Positions 50,199 through 59,142 of a stretch of DNA of 64,000 nucleotides are shown piece after piece; within the stretch, counting starts at the first letter, position 1; every line of letters starts with the position of its first letter. The translations under genes and the position numbers were made by a program. The notes beneath the pieces were generated by a model. The model searched no databases and was not told the DNA's origin. It saw only the letters and a program-made list of their open reading frames with translations. This stretch comes from Salinigranum rubrum (GTDB lineage: Archaea > Halobacteriota > Halobacteria > Halobacteriales > Haloferacaceae): contig NZ_CP026309.1 of NCBI RefSeq assembly GCF_002906575.1, forward strand, positions 2,294,001 to 2,358,000, read 5' to 3'.

Positions 50199-51638
50199 TC
50201 AGTTGCCGCCGCCCGAGAGCGCGCTCTCGATGACCGACGAGTACGACGACTCGCCGATGTTGAACGCGACCTGCGTCATGACCTCGCCGTCGAAGCTGTC
50301 CTCGAACACGCTGGAGAACCGGTTCGATAGCTGCTGGCCGTAGTCGTTGTTGACGTACAGCGTCGACACCGAGGAGGCACCGAGGCGCTCGGCCATGACC
50401 TGCGCCATCACACGACCCTGCAGGCGGTCCGAGGGTGCGGTCCGGAAGATGAAGTCGTTGTCCTCCAGATTCGTCACCGACAGCGCCGTCGACGAGGGCG
50501 AGCAGCCGACGATTTCGTTCGGGATGGCGACCTGCTGGGAGAACGGGACGTTCACGCCAGAGGAGGCGGTGCCACAGACGAACGGGACGCCGGCGCTGGC
50601 GAGCGACTGACCGGCCGCGACGCCCGCGCTGGGTGAGGTCTGCGTGTCCTCGACCTGGGCGCTCACGGAGAGGCCGGCCGGGTTGCTCTCGTTGACGAGC
50701 GTCCCCGGGATCTGTGCGGCCTGAATCATCGGCTGGCCGGTCGACGCGAGGTCACCCGTCTCCGGCAGGAGGATTCCGAGCGAGACCTCCCGGTCGCTGC
50801 CGCCGGGGCCGCTGTCGGCCGACGGGCCGCTCCCGTCGGGGTTCTGCCCGGAGAACGACTGGGTTTCGAGGGTGGTCGTCGACTGCGACTCGACGCCCTC
50901 GAACTCCCAGATGGCGTACGCCGCCGAGGCGGGGTCGCCGTTCTGGTCGAAGTTCGTCGCCGAGGAGGCACCCTGGTAGTTGATGTCGTCGCCGTTCGCC
51001 GCGGCTTCGACGCCCTCGACGAAGTTCTGCGGGCCGACCTCCATCCCACCGGGGTTGGCGATGCGGCGCATCTGGTCCTTGACGGCGGGACCGCTGTTCT
51101 CGCCCGCTGCCGCGTTGGCGAGGATGCCGATGGCCGCGGAGTCGAACGACTGCGACGTGAACACGCCGGGCGCGGAGCCGTACTGCTCTTCGAAGAGGCT
51201 GGTGAACGCTTCCTGATTCGGGCCGCCGGCGGCCGGGGCCGTCCCGGTGACGTTCTCCATCGGATTACCCACCTGTGCGGGGAGCGCCCCGTCGCGGAGA
51301 CCGTCGGGGATGAGGATGGCGTGGCTCCCGTCAGTCTGGCTGTAGTAGTCGCGGAACAGTTGGATACCGGACTCCGGATAGCCGATGATGACGAGGCCGT
51401 CGGGACCGCTCATACTCCCGCTCGAACTGGTGCCCTCGCTCTCGGTCTCGGTCATCTCCGAACCACCGCTCTCGGTCTCGGTCATCTCCGAACCGCCGGA
51501 TTCGGTGCTTTCACCGCCGGACTCGCCACCGGATTCGCCGCCACCGTTTCCGCCCCCACCGATACAGCCGGCGAGACCAGCAACACCGGCTGCGCCGGCT
51601 CCTTTCAGGAACTTACGTCGGTCGATATCACGGACCAT
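50199..51638 (-). CDS. Branched-chain amino acid type substrate-binding lipoprotein, circularly permuted
   Basis: Extracellular ABC substrate-binding lipoprotein of 479 residues in the LivJ-like (type 1 periplasmic-binding fold) family. A Tat lipoprotein signal, DRRKFLKGAGAAGVAGLAGC, gives lipid Cys25. The rest is in unusual order: a Gly/Ser/Glu linker (about 26-78), then the canonical second half (PDGLVIIGYPESGIQLFRDY to about 261, including GVFTSQSFDSAAIGILANAA). Next come a second linker (about 262-282) and the canonical first half (REVSLGILLPETGDLASTGQ to YSSVIESAL, about 283-475). In relatives the halves are the other way round and join at ESAL-PDGL. The frame is uninterrupted. It may deliver substrate to the LivHMGF transporter upstream on the same strand. 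Confidence 0.9.
   Translation of the reverse strand: MVRDIDRRKFLKGAGAAGVAGLAGCIGGGGNGGGESGGESGGESTESGGSEMTETESGGSEMTETESEGTSSSGSMSGPDGLVIIGYPESGIQLFRDYYSQTDGSHAILIPDGLRDGALPAQVGNPMENVTGTAPAAGGPNQEAFTSLFEEQYGSAPGVFTSQSFDSAAIGILANAAAGENSGPAVKDQMRRIANPGGMEVGPQNFVEGVEAAANGDDINYQGASSATNFDQNGDPASAAYAIWEFEGVESQSTTTLETQSFSGQNPDGSGPSADSGPGGSDREVSLGILLPETGDLASTGQPMIQAAQIPGTLVNESNPAGLSVSAQVEDTQTSPSAGVAAGQSLASAGVPFVCGTASSGVNVPFSQQVAIPNEIVGCSPSSTALSVTNLEDNDFIFRTAPSDRLQGRVMAQVMAERLGASSVSTLYVNNDYGQQLSNRFSSVFEDSFDGEVMTQVAFNIGESSYSSVIESALSGGGN
51437..51500. repeat. 30-base tandem duplication in the binding-protein linker
   Basis: Two adjacent near-identical 30-base units encode SGGSEMTETE twice in the linker after the lipid anchor. 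They show the linker is recently expanded or contractile. Confidence 0.7.
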
Positions 51639-51879
51639 ATTCCGTCGATAGGTACAGCCGCTTATAAATCTACCCTTGTGAACTGAACACATATGTCTAC
51701 TCCGTTGTGTCCTTTATGATTTATTCGACGTTTTTCGCGGATGAATGAATATATCGCGGTCGGATAGGAACGCTACAGACGTCTCACGGGAGACCGCGCG
51801 CTCCGCGGGGCGTGTCTCGCCCGACGACGATGGTCGAAACCAACACGTTGAAACTGGCTGCCCGGCCCTCTCTACACCA

Positions 51880-52565
51880 ATGGCCATCCCGTCGTTCGTC
51901 ATCGGAATCGCGGGGGGACCGGCGCCGGGAAGACGACGGTCGCACGGCTCATCACGGAGAACGTCGGCGACTCGGTGACTCGGATCCCGATCGACAACTA
52001 CTACGAGGATCTGAGCCACCTCGGCTTCGAAGAGCGGAGGGCTCGGAACTACGACCACCCCTCGGCGTTCGAGTGGGACCTCCTCCGCGAGCAGATGAGC
52101 GCCCTCTTGGAGGGGCGGGCGGTCGAGATGCCCCAGTACGACTTCTCCGAGCACAACCGGAAACCCGAGCGGACGACCGTCGAGCCGACCGACGTCATCA
52201 TCCTCGAAGGGATTCTGGCGCTGCACGACGACGCGGTCAACGAGATGATGGACCTGCGGCTGTACGTCGAGACGGACGCCGACGTCCGCATCCTCCGGCG
52301 CATCCGGCGCGACGTCATCGAGCGCGGGCGGGAACTCGAGGGCGTCATCGAGCAGTACCTCTCGACGGTCAAGCCCATGCACGAGCAGTTCATCGAGCCG
52401 ACGAAGCGGAACGCGGACCTCATCATCCCCGAGGGGGCAAACAGCGTCGCGGTGAACCTCATCGAAGAGAAGGTGCGCGCGGAGGTCACCGGCAACGCAC
52501 CCCGGACGTGGGAGCGCAGCCCGGTCGAACTCGAACTCGACGCCGAGTACGACGACCGCGACTAG
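51880..52565 (+). pseudogene. udk: Uridine kinase-like P-loop protein, interrupted by a one-base frameshift
   Basis: Uridine kinase family enzyme (uridine/cytidine + NTP to UMP/CMP). From ATG 51880 the first frame reads MAIPSFVIGIAGG and then loses frame in the G6 run at 51912-51917. The other frame gives TGAGKTTVARLITENVGDSV and continues to 52565 with IPIDNYYEDLSHLGFEERRA and LEGILALHDD. Adding one G yields the P-loop GGTGAGKTT and a normal protein of about 228 residues. The break therefore falls inside the Walker A motif and would abolish activity if real. A sequencing indel is the likely cause. Confidence 0.88.
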
Positions 52566-52879
52566 GCGCGCTCGCGGACGAACTCGTCGGCGCCCTCGTA
52601 GAACCAGAGGTCGTTCGCGCGCATCGCGCGGCCGAGCGCCTGGTGGAGTTCGACGAAGTCGGCGAACTCCTCCTCCTCGACGCCCTCGAACACCTCCCGG
52701 AGCGAGACGACGCGCTCGTAGTCGATCCGGACGGGGTCGTCGCCGTACTCGGCGACGAACTCGTCGCGCGAGAGCGGGAAGTCCTCCTCCTCGTCGATCT
52801 TCTTGGCGATGATCGCGTGGCCGTACTTCCGTCGGCCCTCGCTCCCCTGTTCTCCGTCGGGGTCGTGTGGCCAGTCCAT
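52562..52879 (-). CDS. DUF5785 family protein
   Basis: A 105-residue acidic haloarchaeal protein matching the family I recall as DUF5785: MDWPHDPDGEQGSEGRRKYG, then AIIAKKIDEEEDFPLSRDEF and RIDYERVVSLREVFEGVEEE. No function is known. ATG 52879 is the family start. Its stop overlaps the udk stop by 4 bases in convergent orientation. Confidence 0.82.
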   Translation of the reverse strand: MDWPHDPDGEQGSEGRRKYGHAIIAKKIDEEEDFPLSRDEFVAEYGDDPVRIDYERVVSLREVFEGVEEEEFADFVELHQALGRAMRANDLWFYEGADEFVRERA

Positions 52880-52925
52880 ACGGGACGGTTGGGAGGGCAC
52901 CTCAAAGCCGTTACGCTGTCGGTCG

Positions 52926-53450
52926 CTATCGGGTGTCGCCCGACACGCGAGACGTGCGAACGACCGCGAGCGACACCGTCACGTCGGTCGGGACGGCCTC
53001 CTGTGTCGGCTCGGCGTCGCGCAGCGTCCGCCGCCAGTCTTCGAGGGCCGCGTCGTCCGCGGGCGTCTCGACGTGCAGCGTCGCCGACATCGACGCTACC
53101 GCCGTCCGGAAGCCCGGTGCCGCATCCGCGTCCGTCGGGACGGTCCCGTCGACGACGACCCGCACGACGTCGACGCGTCCTGTGAGCGGGTCGACGAGGC
53201 TGTGACTCGCCGCGACGAGGTAGCTCGCGAACAGTTCGAGTACCGTCCCGGCCGCCGTTGGCGCGTCCACCGAACGAGTCAACCGGAAGTCGAAGGAGTC
53301 GCGCGTGTGGGCCGGAGCGGCGGCATCTCCACGGTCTTCGCTGCGACGGGCGGCCGCGTCGACGGCGTTCACCGCTTCGACCCGATGGGTGTCCGCGGCG
53401 AGAGCCATGGGCGACGGCGCGTGCTCCGGGGCCGACGAACGGTCAGTCAC
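52926..53450 (-). CDS. OsmC-like protein lacking catalytic cysteines (paralogue 1)
   Basis: A 174-residue protein I interpret as OsmC-like. Expected elements are seen: FDFRLTRSVDAPTAAGTVLE and ASYLVAASHSLVDPLTGRVD (the helix region of OsmC), VVRVVVDG, then FRTAVASMSATLHVETPADD and a final helix-strand DVTVSLAVV. Both cysteines of OsmC/Ohr thiol peroxidases are absent, so peroxidase activity is unlikely. A paralogue lies directly upstream at 53533-54051. GTG 53450 is used; ATG 53408 in frame is an alternative. The fold call is an inference from sequence pattern. Confidence 0.6.
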   Translation of the reverse strand: MTDRSSAPEHAPSPMALAADTHRVEAVNAVDAAARRSEDRGDAAAPAHTRDSFDFRLTRSVDAPTAAGTVLELFASYLVAASHSLVDPLTGRVDVVRVVVDGTVPTDADAAPGFRTAVASMSATLHVETPADDAALEDWRRTLRDAEPTQEAVPTDVTVSLAVVRTSRVSGDTR

Positions 53451-53532
53451 GAGAAATCCACATTGGTACAGGACATTCTATCACGAAAGATACTGCCGAA
53501 CTATATGAGTCTATGGGCAGTCGGGTCAGGGC

Positions 53533-54051
53533 TCAGTCGTCCGTCACGTCACGGAGGGCCGCCCGGGGCGTGACGAGGAGGTCGACGCCGACGAGTCCGG
53601 GCACCATCGAGAACGGGACGTCGTCGCCGACGAGTCGGTCGCGCCACACCGCGAGGCGGTCGGCCGAATCGTCGGTGTGTGCCTCGATCAGCGCGCGGAC
53701 GCGGCTCTGCTCCGTGGGCGTGGCACGCCAGAGGTCGTTCTCGCCGGGCGGTTCGACGGCGCCACCGTCGAACCGTGTCATCCCGCCTTCCACCTCGACG
53801 ACCACGCGACGCACGTCGACGGCGATGTCGAGCGCGGTGGAGTGGTGCGTGGCGGCGGCGCCGAGATAGCTCGCGAGAAGTCCGAGCGCCGGTTCGTCGA
53901 AGGAGTCCCCCTCGACGACGAAGTCGAACGCGCCCGGGTCGTCGCTCGGGTCGCACTCGTTCACCGCCTCGATCCGCTTCGTGACGTGTCGGTTCACCAC
54001 TGCGGCGCGCTCGGCGTTGGACGACTGGTTCGGGGTAGTGGGTGGTGTCAT
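53533..54051 (-). CDS. OsmC-like protein lacking catalytic cysteines (paralogue 2)
   Basis: A 172-residue paralogue of the preceding gene product. Shared segments are RIEAVNECDPSDDPGAFDFV, LGLLASYLGAAATHHSTALD and IAVDVRRVVVEVEGGM, aligned with RVEAVNAVDAAARR and SYLVAASHSLVDPL of the neighbour. Again the OsmC cysteine positions are not Cys. No partner or substrate is known. ATG 54051 is preferred; GTG 54099 in frame is possible. A strong AT-rich TATA (TTTAAATAATATTGG on the minus strand, near 54121-54135) lies upstream. Confidence 0.6.
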   Translation of the reverse strand: MTPPTTPNQSSNAERAAVVNRHVTKRIEAVNECDPSDDPGAFDFVVEGDSFDEPALGLLASYLGAAATHHSTALDIAVDVRRVVVEVEGGMTRFDGGAVEPPGENDLWRATPTEQSRVRALIEAHTDDSADRLAVWRDRLVGDDVPFSMVPGLVGVDLLVTPRAALRDVTDD

Positions 54052-54119
54052 CTGGCTCGTTCCACGGACGGCGAGGGGCCACTCGCCGCGAGCGGCCACC
54101 GGTCACACGGTATTCGTTG

Positions 54120-54135
54120 CAGCCAATATTATTTA
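54120..54135 (-). promoter_or_regulatory. AT-rich promoter of the OsmC-like paralogue 2
   Basis: TTTTTAAATAATATTGG on the minus strand is one of the strongest TATA-like sequences in the window. It lies about 70-80 bases upstream of ATG 54051, which leaves a leader of roughly 45-50 bases. Confidence 0.45.
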
Positions 54136-54269
54136 AAAATAGCCGGTTAGAACGGTTCAATCGTCGTCCGATTTCGGTGGGATAATCGTCGAATATCGGG
54201 GACAGCGCCAACATCGAGGAGTCGAGGGGAACAGTCGACCTCGGTGCGACCCGCGCGAACTCCCCGTCC

Positions 54270-54992
54270 TCAGTCGAGCAGTCCCAGTTCGGCGATGAGC
54301 GGTGCCGTCTCCCTCGGGACGATCCGTCCGGCGTCCCGGCGTGCGGCGAGGAGCGGGAGGACGGTGTCGAAGTCGGCGGGCGTCCGGAGCACCGGTTGCA
54401 TCGGGAGGAAGTCGACGCCGAGGTCGGCCTCGTCACCCCGGGCGGCGAGCGTCGAGACCTCCGGCGCGGCGAAGGCGTCGGCGAAATCGATGGGCTCGGT
54501 GAACGCCGCGTAGAACACTCTCCCCTCGGGTGCGGGGCCGAGGACGACCGGCGTCGAGCGGAGCTTCATCGCCGCCGAATCGACCGTGGCTCGCGTCAGG
54601 AACGGGGCCGTCCCGCGGACGACAGCGACGGAATCCGCGTCCTCCTCGCGGAGGAGGTGCGTCGCCGTGTTCCCGGCGCGGGCAGCGTACGACGAGCCGA
54701 CCTGTACCTCGAACCGGACGTCGTCGAGGTCCGACAGGGCGTCGGCCGCGAGCGCGCGGACCGCCGCCTCCGCATCACCCTCGTCGCGTCGATGTTCTTC
54801 GGGGAGGTGTTCCTCGGGCCGGTAGTTGACGAGGAGGTCGCCCCCGGAGCGCTCGACGGCGACGAACGTGTCCTTCAGCATTGCGGCGTACAGGTCGGCG
54901 GCTTCCTCGCCCGTGAGCGGCCCGTTCTCGACGAGGTCGGAGAGCACCAGTCCGGGTCGCGGCGGGTCGCAGAGCACGCAGACGACGGTCAT
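54270..54992 (-). CDS. DUF2064 glycosyltransferase-A-like protein
   Basis: A 240-residue protein of the DUF2064/TIGR04282-type glycosyltransferase A fold, related to nucleotidyltransferases. It starts MTVVCVLCDPPRPGLVLSDL, then EEAADLYAAMLKDTFVAVER and DFLPMQPVLRTPADFDTVLP. The usual DTP-type metal motif is not clearly seen, so the activity is uncertain. ATG 54992 is used. It stands alone upstream of the OsmC-like pair on the same strand. Confidence 0.7.
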   Translation of the reverse strand: MTVVCVLCDPPRPGLVLSDLVENGPLTGEEAADLYAAMLKDTFVAVERSGGDLLVNYRPEEHLPEEHRRDEGDAEAAVRALAADALSDLDDVRFEVQVGSSYAARAGNTATHLLREEDADSVAVVRGTAPFLTRATVDSAAMKLRSTPVVLGPAPEGRVFYAAFTEPIDFADAFAAPEVSTLAARGDEADLGVDFLPMQPVLRTPADFDTVLPLLAARRDAGRIVPRETAPLIAELGLLD

Positions 54993-55100
54993 ACCGAGGA
55001 GAAAAGACGGCGTGGCCTTGAACGCGCCGCTTCGGACTCGTCGTGAGACGCTCCACGGGGAGGGTGGCGACGAACGGGTGTCCCCGAGGCCCGGCGGGGC

Positions 55101-55853
55101 TCAGCCGCCGAGGAAGTCCTGTCGAACCTGCGGGTCGTTCAAGAGGGCGTCGCCGGTGTCGACGTAGCGGTTCTTCCCGTTGGCGAGGACGTACCCCCTG
55201 TTGCAGCGACGGAGCGCCTCTTTGGCGTTCTGCTCGACCATCAGGACCGCGGTGCCGTCGTCGTTGATGGCGTCGATGCGGTCGAACATGTCGTCGACGA
55301 GGTCGGGCGCTAGCCCGGCCGAGGGCTCGTCGAGGAGGAGCAGGTCCGGTTCCAGCATGAGCGCCCGGCCCATCGCGAGCATCTGCTGCTGGCCGCCGGA
55401 CATGGTGCCGGCCTTCTGCTCTTTCCGCTCGCGGAGGATGGGGAAGCGATCGAAGACGGCTTCGAGCGCGTCCTGTGGTACTTCGTCGAGGATGTACGCG
55501 CCCATCTCGAGGTTCTCCTGCACCGACAGGGAGGCGAAGACGTTGTCGTTCTGGGGGACGTAGCCGATGCCCTTGTGGATGATCTCCTCGGGGATGAGGC
55601 CGGTGATGTCCTCGTCGGCGAACGTCACGACCCCTCCCATGTGACTGGTGAGCCCGAAGACGCTCTTCATTAGCGTCGACTTCCCCGCCCCGTTGGGTCC
55701 GACGATGGTGACGTACTCGCCACTGTCGACGAACATGTCCACGTCGGTGAGGATCTGGAGGTCGCCGTAGCCCGCGTCGAGGTTCTCGACTTCGAGGAGG
55801 CTCGTCCCCGGCGTCCGGTCCGGTTCCGTCTCCGCGTCGGTCGTCGCGCTCAT
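55101..55853 (-). CDS. livF: Branched-chain amino acid ABC transporter ATPase LivF
   Basis: ATP-binding subunit LivF of a branched-chain amino acid type ABC importer, 250 residues. It has Walker A GPNGAGKSTLMKSVFGLTSH, a Q-loop GYVPQNDNVF, the ABC signature TMSGGQQQMLAMGRALM, Walker B LLLLDEPSAGL and the H-loop region VEQNAKEALRRCNRGYV. An N-terminal acidic extension precedes LLEVENLDAGYGDLQIL. The ATG overlaps the expected livG stop (ATGA). It is the last gene of the livHMGF operon. Confidence 0.95.
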   Translation of the reverse strand: MSATTDAETEPDRTPGTSLLEVENLDAGYGDLQILTDVDMFVDSGEYVTIVGPNGAGKSTLMKSVFGLTSHMGGVVTFADEDITGLIPEEIIHKGIGYVPQNDNVFASLSVQENLEMGAYILDEVPQDALEAVFDRFPILRERKEQKAGTMSGGQQQMLAMGRALMLEPDLLLLDEPSAGLAPDLVDDMFDRIDAINDDGTAVLMVEQNAKEALRRCNRGYVLANGKNRYVDTGDALLNDPQVRQDFLGG

Positions 55854-56718
55854 ACGTTCCCCCGAGGTACGCCTCGATGACTTCCTCGTTCGACTTGATA
55901 TCGGCCGGCGTTCCCTCCGTGAGCACCGTCCCCTGGTGGAGGACGATGACGTGTTCACAGTTGTTCATGATGAGGTCCATGTCGTGCTCGACGAGCAGGA
56001 ACGTGTACCCCTGCTCGCGGAGTTCGTGGATGTGTTCGAGGAGCCGTTTCTCCAGCGAGGGGTTGACGCCGGCGAACGGCTCGTCGAGGAGGAGCATGTC
56101 CGGGTCGGTGAGGAGCGCGCGCGCCATCTCCAGCAGCTTCCGCTGACCGCCCGAGAGGTTCCCGGCGTACTCCTCGGCGATGTGATCGATCTCGAAGAAC
56201 TCGAGCGTCTCCCACGCCCGTTCGAGCAACTGCTCCTCCTGTTCGATGACCTGCCCGCGGACGCCGGGGGTGACAGAGCGCCAGAGGCTCTCGCCGACCT
56301 GTCCCTTCGGGGCGAGCATCATGTTCTCGAGGACGGTCATGTCCTTGAGTTCGCGAGCGATCTGGAACGTCCGGACGAGGCCGCGGTTGGCGATGGTGTA
56401 CGGCTCCATGCCGGTGATGTCCTCGCCGTTGAACGTCACACTGCCCGCGTCGGGGCGGTACATGCCCGTGATGAGGTTGAACGTGGTCGACTTGCCGGCG
56501 CCGTTCGGCCCGATGAGCCCCGTCAACGAGCCCTGTTCGACCTGGAACGTCGCCCCGTCGACCGCCGTGATGCCGCCGAAGGACTTCTCCAGCCCCTCGA
56601 CCCGGAGCGGGTACTCGTGTTCGATGCCGACGTCGCTCGTCGCCGAGAGCGCCTCCGCGCCCGTCTCCACGTCGTCGGGCGCACCCTGTCCGCCGCCAGT
56701 GTCGGTTGCTTCACTCAT
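55850..56718 (-). pseudogene. livG: Branched-chain amino acid ABC transporter ATPase LivG, one-base frameshift at 3' end
   Basis: ATPase LivG of the importer. Walker A is GPNGAGKSTTFNLITGMYRP, the signature NLSGGQRKLLEMARALL, Walker B LLLDEPFAGVNP and H-loop VEHDMDLIMNNC, all intact in a 289-residue protein. Near the end EVIEAYLGG should be followed by NV and a TGA overlapping the livF ATG (ATGA). The run of five C at 55859-55863 (plus strand) is one short of the six needed, so the frame reads on as TYERDDRRGDG into livF. A missing base is the simplest explanation; only the last two codons and the stop are affected. Confidence 0.9.
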
Positions 56719-58033
56719 CCTCGTCACCTCCGTCCGCCGCGACGGCACGGCCCCGCCGTGCCGTCAGGTCGATGCTCGCCGCCGTCTCCTTGCGGTGGCC
56801 GAGCAGTCCGTCGGGACGGTTGTGCATCAGCCAGACGAGCACGAGTCCCATGATGACGAGTTGGAGCTGGCGGACGCTGTCGAGCGTGTAGAAGATGAAC
56901 GGCAAGGGGTCGGCCTCCGAGAGGAGCGGCGAGATGGCCGGCCCGAACGAACTCGGCGCGCTCGCGGTGGGGAGGATCTCCTCGATGACGTTCTTGAGGT
57001 AGCGCGGACCCTGATAGAGGAGGGCCGCGAACATCGCGCCGCCGACGATGCTCCCGGTGTTCGAGCCGGCGCCGCCGATGATGAGCGCGATCCAGACGAA
57101 GAACGTGATCCTCGGTCTGAAGGTGTTCGGCGTCACCGCACCCTGAGTCATGAACCAGAGGATGCCCGCCAGCCCCATGAGCGCACAGCCGAGCATGAAC
57201 GACTTGATCTTGAAGCCGTTGGTGTCCTTGCCGAGCGAGTTGGCGACGTCCTCGTCCTCGCGGATCGCCTTGAGGACGCGACCGAAGGGGGACTCACCCG
57301 TGCGCTTCAGGAGCCAGAAGTACACGGCGACGAAGAACAGCAACATCGCCCCGTAGACGAGGCCGTCGATGACCGGCTTCGGATTGGTCGGGATGATCGC
57401 CGTCGACGCTTCGATGAGCCCCTGATAGGCACCCCAGAGGCCGAACGCCTCGAAGAACGCCTGGAGCGGGTCCGTGTAGTTGAGGATGACGCCGGAGCCG
57501 CCGCCGAAGCCCACTCGTCTGCCGAAGAGCTGGAACTGCTGGAACTGCGAGGAGAGGAACGAGAATCGGACGATCTCCGACATCGCGATGGTGACGATGG
57601 CGAGGTAGTCCGCCCGAAGTCTGAGCGCGGGAAGCGCGACGACCAGGCCCAGGAGGGCGGAGGCGACCATCCCCGCGATGATACCGACGATGAGCGGGAG
57701 GCCGAGTCCGCCGACCTGAGCGGCGCTACCGGGCTCGTAGAGGGGCTTCGAGACCAACGCCATGACGTAGATACCGACCGCCATGAACCCGACGATGCCG
57801 ATGTTGAACAGCCCGGTGTACCCCCAGTGGAGGTTCAGCGCGAGCGCCAGCATGGCGAAGACGCCGATGAAGAAGGTCAAGACGGCGAGCGAGTTCAACT
57901 GTCCCCGCAGGGAGAAGCCGAGGATGACGCCGCTGACGATGTACGCGGCGTAGAGCACGGCGAGCAGGAGGACGATGAGTCCCGCGTCGCCGCCCGGGAT
58001 GCGCTCGGTGAACCGGTCGACGTCGACGCTCAT
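56711..58033 (-). CDS. livM: Branched-chain amino acid ABC transporter permease LivM
   Basis: Membrane permease LivM, 440 residues with about ten membrane helices (the C-terminal part is acidic, ending VAADGGDEDE). The characteristic region is ADYLAIVTIAMSEIVRFSFL, with RTGESPFGRVLKAIREDEDV and ANSLGKDTNGFKIKSFMLGC forming the ATPase-contact segment. The haloarchaeal insertions between helices are typical. The start overlaps the livH stop by 4 bases (ATGA), and the end overlaps livG by 8 bases, so the operon is tight. Confidence 0.93.
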   Translation of the reverse strand: MSVDVDRFTERIPGGDAGLIVLLLAVLYAAYIVSGVILGFSLRGQLNSLAVLTFFIGVFAMLALALNLHWGYTGLFNIGIVGFMAVGIYVMALVSKPLYEPGSAAQVGGLGLPLIVGIIAGMVASALLGLVVALPALRLRADYLAIVTIAMSEIVRFSFLSSQFQQFQLFGRRVGFGGGSGVILNYTDPLQAFFEAFGLWGAYQGLIEASTAIIPTNPKPVIDGLVYGAMLLFFVAVYFWLLKRTGESPFGRVLKAIREDEDVANSLGKDTNGFKIKSFMLGCALMGLAGILWFMTQGAVTPNTFRPRITFFVWIALIIGGAGSNTGSIVGGAMFAALLYQGPRYLKNVIEEILPTASAPSSFGPAISPLLSEADPLPFIFYTLDSVRQLQLVIMGLVLVWLMHNRPDGLLGHRKETAASIDLTARRGRAVAADGGDEDE

Positions 58034-59142
58034 GCGGTGGACCTCCCGGCGAAGATGCCCTGTGGCTTGACGAGCAGGATGACGATCATGACGAGGAACG
58101 CCGCCGCGCGTGCGAACGCGGAGGGGATCCAGATGACCGACAGCGACGCGGTGAGGCCGATGACCAGTCCGCCGGCGATGGCGCCGTAGATGGAGCCGAT
58201 GCCGCCGAGGATGACCGCCGCGAAGATGAGAAGTAAGAGGAGCCAGCCGTCGTTGAACCCGAGCGTCCCCTTCCAGAGGACGAACATGTAGCCGGCGACC
58301 CCGGTGAGTCCGCCGCCGATGATCCACACCGAGCGGACGACCCGTTCGGTCGGAATGCCCGTGATACGCGCGAGGTCCTCGTTGTCGGCCATCGCACGCA
58401 TCGCCTTCCCGAGCTTCGTCGTCTGCAAGAGGACGTGGACGCCGAGCATCAGGCCGCCGGCGACGACGACCAAGGCGATGTCGTGCGCCGAGATGAACAC
58501 CTGGCCGTCCCAGAGGTACGGCCCGATCTGTGGCGGCTGCGCCGTCGTCCCCCGAACGTCGGAGCCGAAGACGAACTGCATCAGGTACCGGAGCGCGAAC
58601 GCGACGCCGATACTGGTGATGAGGAGCGTGATGCCGTCCTCGTCGCGGATCGGTTTGTAGATGAACCGGTCGACGCCGAGCGAGAGCACGATGGTGAACG
58701 CGCCGGCGATCACGAGGCCGAGAACCACGGCCAGCGGCGTCCCCAACACGCCGATACCCAGCGCACCGCCGAACACCGACCCGCCCGCACCGACCAACAG
58801 GAGCGACCCGAGGTCGGCGTTGGGACGGGCGAGGCCGGCGATGAGGTACGTCGTCGCCCACCCGGAGAACGCGCCGGCGGTGATGTAATCACCGTGTGAA
58901 AAGTTCGCGAAGTTCAGAATGCTGTACGTCATCGACAGACCGATTCCGGCGAGACCGATGACGAGTCCACGCATCAGGCCGTCCCAGACGAGTGACCCGA
59001 TGTCGTGGACCTGTACGTCGCCGGTGCTGAACTGCCGAGCGAGGTCGGCGACCAGCACAACGGCGACCAACGCGACCAGGAGCACTCCGGGGCGCTCGAT
59101 CGCGATCTTTCGGCCGCGGGAATAGGTATCAGCGATGCCCAT
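58030..59142 (-). CDS. livH: Branched-chain amino acid ABC transporter permease LivH
   Basis: Membrane permease LivH, 370 residues, about eight to ten helices. Motifs are GLSMTYSILNFANFSHGDYI (the conserved NFAHGD-like loop, around 95-114), FIYKPIRDEDGITLLITSIG and LGKAMRAMADNEDLARITGI near the ATPase contact. The N-terminus is cytoplasmic. ATG 59142 is chosen; GAGG about 10-14 bases upstream may be its ribosome-binding site. It is the first gene of the operon, with a TATA-like GTTTATGC at 59182-59189. Confidence 0.93.
   Translation of the reverse strand: MGIADTYSRGRKIAIERPGVLLVALVAVVLVADLARQFSTGDVQVHDIGSLVWDGLMRGLVIGLAGIGLSMTYSILNFANFSHGDYITAGAFSGWATTYLIAGLARPNADLGSLLLVGAGGSVFGGALGIGVLGTPLAVVLGLVIAGAFTIVLSLGVDRFIYKPIRDEDGITLLITSIGVAFALRYLMQFVFGSDVRGTTAQPPQIGPYLWDGQVFISAHDIALVVVAGGLMLGVHVLLQTTKLGKAMRAMADNEDLARITGIPTERVVRSVWIIGGGLTGVAGYMFVLWKGTLGFNDGWLLLLLIFAAVILGGIGSIYGAIAGGLVIGLTASLSVIWIPSAFARAAAFLVMIVILLVKPQGIFAGRSTA

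Follow-up and report, generated by a model that had tools for sequence, protein, structure and literature searches.

A circularly permuted LivJ-type binding protein near livFGMH in Salinigranum rubrum and three circular topologies of its locus in Halobacteria

The permuted gene and its neighbourhood

The window, a 64,000-nucleotide stretch of Salinigranum rubrum (contig NZ_CP026309.1, positions 2,294,001 to 2,358,000, forward strand), carries a minus-strand open reading frame (ORF) of 479 codons, in a single frame free of internal stops, that encodes a LivJ-type binding protein (SBP) near the genes of a LivFGMH importer (Table 1). An earlier, sequence-only reading had proposed a Tat lipoprotein signal at the start of this ORF and two linkers joining the parts. 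Both were recovered, the signal as RRKFLKG...LAGC (twin-arginine motif plus lipobox cysteine), with TIGR01409 above its cut-off and PF10518 just below (22.5 bits against a cut-off of 22.7). The tether linker holds a 30-bp direct tandem repeat (51437-51498, 2.1 copies), a possible site of slippage or recombination. The gene is the sole close copy in its genome, and both halves are under purifying selection (pN/pS, 0.10 to 0.12 against two genomes of the same genus, with values as high as 0.36 for comparisons at greater distance).

Table 1. Features of the permuted gene and of the linked importer locus (positions within the window)
Feature	Position	Strand	Basis
Entire permuted SBP gene (479 aa); type A order: signal, C half, linker, N half	50199..51638	-	Open frame; Pfam PF13458 and PF01094; purifying selection
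Residues 1-25: twin-arginine signal, lipobox LAGC, Cys25	51564..51638	-	Sequence; TIGR01409; PF10518 sub-threshold
Residues 26-77: Gly/Ser/Glu/Thr tether linker	51408..51563	-	Sequence; 30-bp direct tandem repeat inside
Residues 78-262: canonical C-terminal half of LivJ-type domain, placed first	50853..51407	-	3td9 203-328 = query 77-199; HMM classification
Residues 263-282: linker, canonical C-terminus to canonical N-terminus	50793..50852	-	NPDGxGPSAD..PGG(S/T)DR type, common to type B
Residues 283-476: canonical N-terminal half, placed last	50211..50792	-	Pfam profile 1-187; type B alignment
Residues 477-479 (GGN): C-terminus at canonical N-half/C-half junction	50202..50210	-	Sequence
udk-like kinase, conserved upstream divergent neighbour of SBP slot	51975..52565	+	PF00485; synteny
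DUF5785 gene, conserved slot marker	52562..52900	-	PF19098; synteny
livF ATPase	55101..55853	-	Orthologue and synteny searches
livG ATPase, conserved part	55856..56718	-	Orthologue and synteny searches; comparison of related loci
livM permease	56711..58033	-	Orthologue and synteny searches
livH permease, LIV-type importer, tail-to-tail with SBP in relatives	58030..59136	-	Orthologue and synteny searches

In related genomes the SBP gene and livF (the importer genes run livF-livG-livM-livH) are tail-to-tail and no more than 4 kb apart in 66 of 72 loci with the window's half order (type A), 25 of 33 with the canonical order and 6 of 6 with a third order (type B, described below); udk and the DUF5785 gene often flank its other side. 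Relative to a congeneric locus (L239, genome G003), the window is inverted across 50199-54992, the block running from an ORF at 54270 to the SBP. This inversion puts udk, DUF5785 and three further ORFs between the SBP and livF (a gap of about 3.5 kb), so that the window SBP is no longer tail-to-tail with livF. Because of this gene linkage, we assign the SBP to the LivFGMH importer, with which it would work.

Two other features of the region were recorded. The livG frame (54775-56748, minus strand) lacks its usual stop: six related loci end in EAYLGGNV, and the window reads EAYLGG followed by about 340 extra codons across livF, which may be a real extension, a frameshift or a sequencing error. 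Two adjacent, apparently related ORFs (52926-53450 and 53533-54099, minus strand) are conserved at 47 to 54% identity in L022/L239; the latter had no Pfam match at E<=0.01.

Half order and predicted fold

The sequence-only reading held that the canonical second half precedes the first half in one frame, and the Pfam profile, a pairwise alignment and structure evidence agree on this. Against Peripla_BP_6 the window SBP scored 86.2 bits (curated cut-off, 31.7), in a match split into two stretches, and profile positions 1-187 covered residues 284-474, which form the C-terminal part of the protein. Alignment with Thermotoga maritima LivK (3td9) placed query residues 284-475 on chain residues 16-202 and query residues 77-199 on chain residues 203-328, with E-values far beyond chance; the halves are therefore swapped, and the protein does not have the collinear N-then-C order of LivJ-type SBPs. 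A circularly doubled query gave one continuous match, in which the halves are rotated and the original termini joined. Chance similarity and a frame artefact were ruled out by these profile and pairwise matches together with the purifying selection in both halves.

The cut can be placed exactly: canonical relatives run from ...SYTSKLQSALGG directly into GPDALVVIGYP..., with SALGG preceding the junction; the window protein ends in ...SYSSVIESALSGGGN followed by its stop codon, and its domain starts at GPDGLVIIGYP. The proposal that the C-terminus stops where relatives continue into PDGL was thus borne out by comparison with canonical relatives.

AlphaFold2 gave a poor model of the full precursor with 13 sequences (pLDDT, 60) and a confident one of the mature protein with 72 homologues (pLDDT, 91.7; pTM, 0.87). 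The latter is a predicted bilobed type I fold, in line with the earlier suggestion that the fold could stay intact. The best Foldseek hits in the PDB were Leu- and Leu/Ile/Val-binding proteins, aligned across one half (about 190 of 405 residues), because a sequential aligner recovers only one half of a permutant. Secondary-structure prediction puts the type A cut in an alpha-to-beta loop of the C lobe (ESAL/PDGL), which is where the sequence-only reading had put the new ends; for type B, the break separates the N lobe's first helix from its second strand. By alignment with type B, this second site corresponds to about residue 322 of the window SBP (around 50673). All three entry points of the chain, judged from these positions, therefore precede a strand, and from the general fold they would face away from the ligand cleft. 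With both halves present and the fold predicted to be intact, the permuted SBP most likely continues to bind a branched-chain amino acid, or a related one, and to hand it over to LivHM.

Three topologies and their phylogeny

Topologies were surveyed with the mature core doubled end to end as a query, to which a circular permutant aligns once, with a start offset that reports its cut. Among the matches listed from 441 genomes of three families, the start offsets formed just three groups (about 1/400, type A; about 242, type B; about 187 to 204, canonical), with no further cut points; outside Halobacteria, the convincing matches among those listed all began at the canonical offset. Type A has the order C-linker-N1-N2 and type B the order N2-C-linker-N1, in which the first beta-alpha unit is moved C-terminal, the main type A linker is retained and the canonical N2-C junction is unbroken (ALSDDPDTLVVIGYP). 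HMM classification of 209 ORFs gave 137 of type A, 62 canonical and 10 of type B (113, 54 and 7 distinct core sequences, respectively). Type B was found in seven genomes, some of which appear to be fragmentary assemblies and one of which is a 5.06-Mb single contig.

When relatives were checked for the permutation, the same genus and most Haloferacaceae were found to have type A. Named genomes with this order included Haloferax, Haloquadratum, Halobellus, Halogeometricum, Haloprofundus, Haloplanus, Haladaptatus and Halomicrococcus, and it was present in 15 of 15 sampled genomes of one genus, probably Haloferax. Halobium, Halogranum, Halococcus and Halomarina had the canonical order. Five loci of Haladaptataceae kind (L036, L038, L039, L091 and L092, some possibly of the same species) hold two adjacent type A copies. 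In L036, L038, L039 and the single-copy locus L040, one copy has a twin-arginine start without the lipobox cysteine and may be secreted free. A Haloquadratum-type genome (L098, 2744-4562, minus strand) carries a pair of type A copies separated by about 11 kb, and the C-terminal tail of one of them is divergent.

The topologies are polyphyletic. A first tree of 64 recut SBP sequences needed 4 changes of the permuted label and recovered a single permuted clade in zero bootstrap trees, and an approximately unbiased (AU) test did not reject such a clade (p=0.0835). Type B and further sequences were then added; the resulting second 64-row tree, with the long or divergent paralogues L019, L050, L158 and L159 still in, again gave 4 permuted/canonical changes. 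These four were removed after the earlier tree had been seen, and the remaining 60 rows rejected one permuted clade (AU p=0.00078; 5 changes) and one type B clade (AU p=6e-5). Type B monophyly was also rejected on a separate tree restricted to the main clade (32 rows; AU p=0.000145). Concatenated LivFGMH from 71 loci, under a simpler model, likewise rejected one permuted clade (p=2.3e-19) and type B monophyly (p=8e-56), on a tree that is independent in sequence but locus-linked to the SBP, so that whole-locus transfer or internal recombination could mislead both. In these tests, SBP and LivFGMH alike, the groups were named partly after trees had been viewed, and the exact p-values deserve little weight. 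Type B as a single clade was rejected on the SBP and LivFGMH trees, and a single permutation event was rejected on both with the wider sampling. The trees require at least about five changes between permuted and canonical and three between A and B, counts that are blind to gain versus reversal.

Pairwise identities support the same pattern independently of any tree. The type A gene of L207 is 71 to 72% identical to the canonical genes of L206 and L110 and 55% identical to the window type A gene, and the type B gene of genome G388 is 74 to 76% identical to the type A genes of L160 and L161. We consider it unlikely that the topologies trace to a single origin, in which one old canonical-to-A permutation was scattered by locus transfer and hidden paralogy. 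The first AU result is compatible with such an origin, as are the linkers of L083 and L207, which might be related to the main one (SDSIPGSSSDR versus ADSIPGGTDR). Against it stand the rejections with wider SBP sampling and, strongly, by LivFGMH, the closeness of L207 to its canonical orthologues rather than to the window gene, and the linkers of the type A lineages L080/L082 and L081/L090, which appear unrelated to the main one. Moreover, transfer carries the SBP and liv genes jointly and would therefore alter the host tree, whereas the way in which topologies are scattered over the locus tree would stay as it is.

Interpretation, origin and precedents

We conclude that, very probably, the gene encodes the lipid-anchored SBP that serves a LivFGMH ABC importer, its type I fold is a natural circular permutant, and the topology of its locus has changed repeatedly. 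It is improbable that the protein is instead a degenerate or neofunctionalised paralogue, such as a sensor, rather than a transport SBP: the lipobox cysteine is absent from some second copies in Haladaptataceae, which fits that reading, but the window SBP has no other close copy in the genome, it is under purifying selection, and its slot beside livFGMH is the slot of the canonical genes in relatives. An assembly error or chimeric contig as the source of the swapped order has a negligible probability and is excluded in practice, because the type A order recurs at full length and 90 to 92% identity in two genomes of the same genus, at 84% over residues 78-476 in a third, and in dozens of independent assemblies, complete chromosomes included. 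A conventional order at the same locus in related genomes, named earlier as a possible refutation, does occur (Halogranum, Halobium and others); it reflects a real orthologous difference and not an assembly artefact.

For the SBP locus across Halobacteria, recurrent switching among the three topologies is a likely account, probably by way of fused tandem intermediates at low-complexity Gly/Ser linkers and under selection that hardly distinguishes the entry point of the lipid tether. A tandem duplication at the locus would be followed by in-frame fusion, and trimming at different points would then give different topologies. For type A, the chain would have been opened at the C-lobe alpha-to-beta loop and the old termini bridged by the Gly/Ser/Asp linker, with the Tat/lipobox tether entering at the new N-terminus. 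The tail (ALSGGGN) and head (GGPDGL) of type A have Gly codons in common, such that a tandem pair of type A genes could yield the unbroken junction of type B. Long flexible tethers may make the attachment point nearly neutral.

This proposed duplication-and-trimming origin is plausible. The tandem type A pairs of Haladaptataceae establish that duplication does happen at the SBP slot. The linker leads from the canonical C-terminus (T-x-x-F) into a Gly-rich stretch resembling the canonical post-lipobox linker, a make-up that a fused tandem pair would give. A search of the 2.5-kb flanks found no remnants of the lost halves at E<0.05, and a fused intermediate was not found.

The only published natural precedent that we found in the open-access literature is Treponema pallidum TpMglB-2 (Tp0684; "Type Ic / Cluster Bc"), a naturally permuted type I sugar-binding lipoprotein that retains ligand binding and conformational change and for which its authors suggest a link to anchoring (PMC4990184). 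Both it and the window SBP are natural permutants of a type I SBP and tethered lipoproteins. TpMglB-2 belongs to a glucose/galactose family of treponemes and Gram-positives, whereas the haloarchaeal SBP is LIV-type and archaeal; its cut follows the first three N-lobe strands, whereas the haloarchaeal cuts lie in the C lobe (type A) or after the first N-lobe beta-alpha unit (type B); and it was reported as one divergent topology, whereas the haloarchaeal locus, orthologous across genomes, shows three that recur. By predicted secondary structure and alignments, with LIV-type proteins as its best relatives, the haloarchaeal SBP is not of Type Ic. Canonical LivJ/LivK-type SBPs (PF13458; 4n0q, 1z15 and 3td9) resemble the window SBP in domain, halves, type of importer partner and predicted fold, but differ in half order, C-to-N linker and where the lipid tether attaches. 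Permuted halves engineered from T. maritima ribose-binding protein indicated that the type I fold tolerates lobe permutation (PMC9815098); those were single lobes, whereas the window SBP is natural and whole. In the open-access literature, with few subscription journals covered, we found neither a haloarchaeal permuted SBP nor any single SBP locus reported to have changed topology recurrently.

The recurrence, the second cut point and the link to the neighbouring livFGMH operon go beyond what the first reading of the sequence could show. The permuted order is ordinary within its own genus, yet part of a far larger and surprising pattern, and it cautions that annotation by domain order can mislead. 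Natural circular permutations are mostly known from ancient, distant pairs in which the route has been erased. Here, orthologues that share 71 to 76% identity and mostly occupy one syntenic slot have different topologies. How often and how fast natural permutation happens, which cut points it prefers, where its linkers come from and what it does to fitness therefore become testable, probably in a genetically tractable genus (probably Haloferax, type A). The locus also bears on the proposal, from TpMglB-2, that tethering drives SBP permutation, and it offers an unusually clear natural example of a protein rewired with its predicted fold kept.
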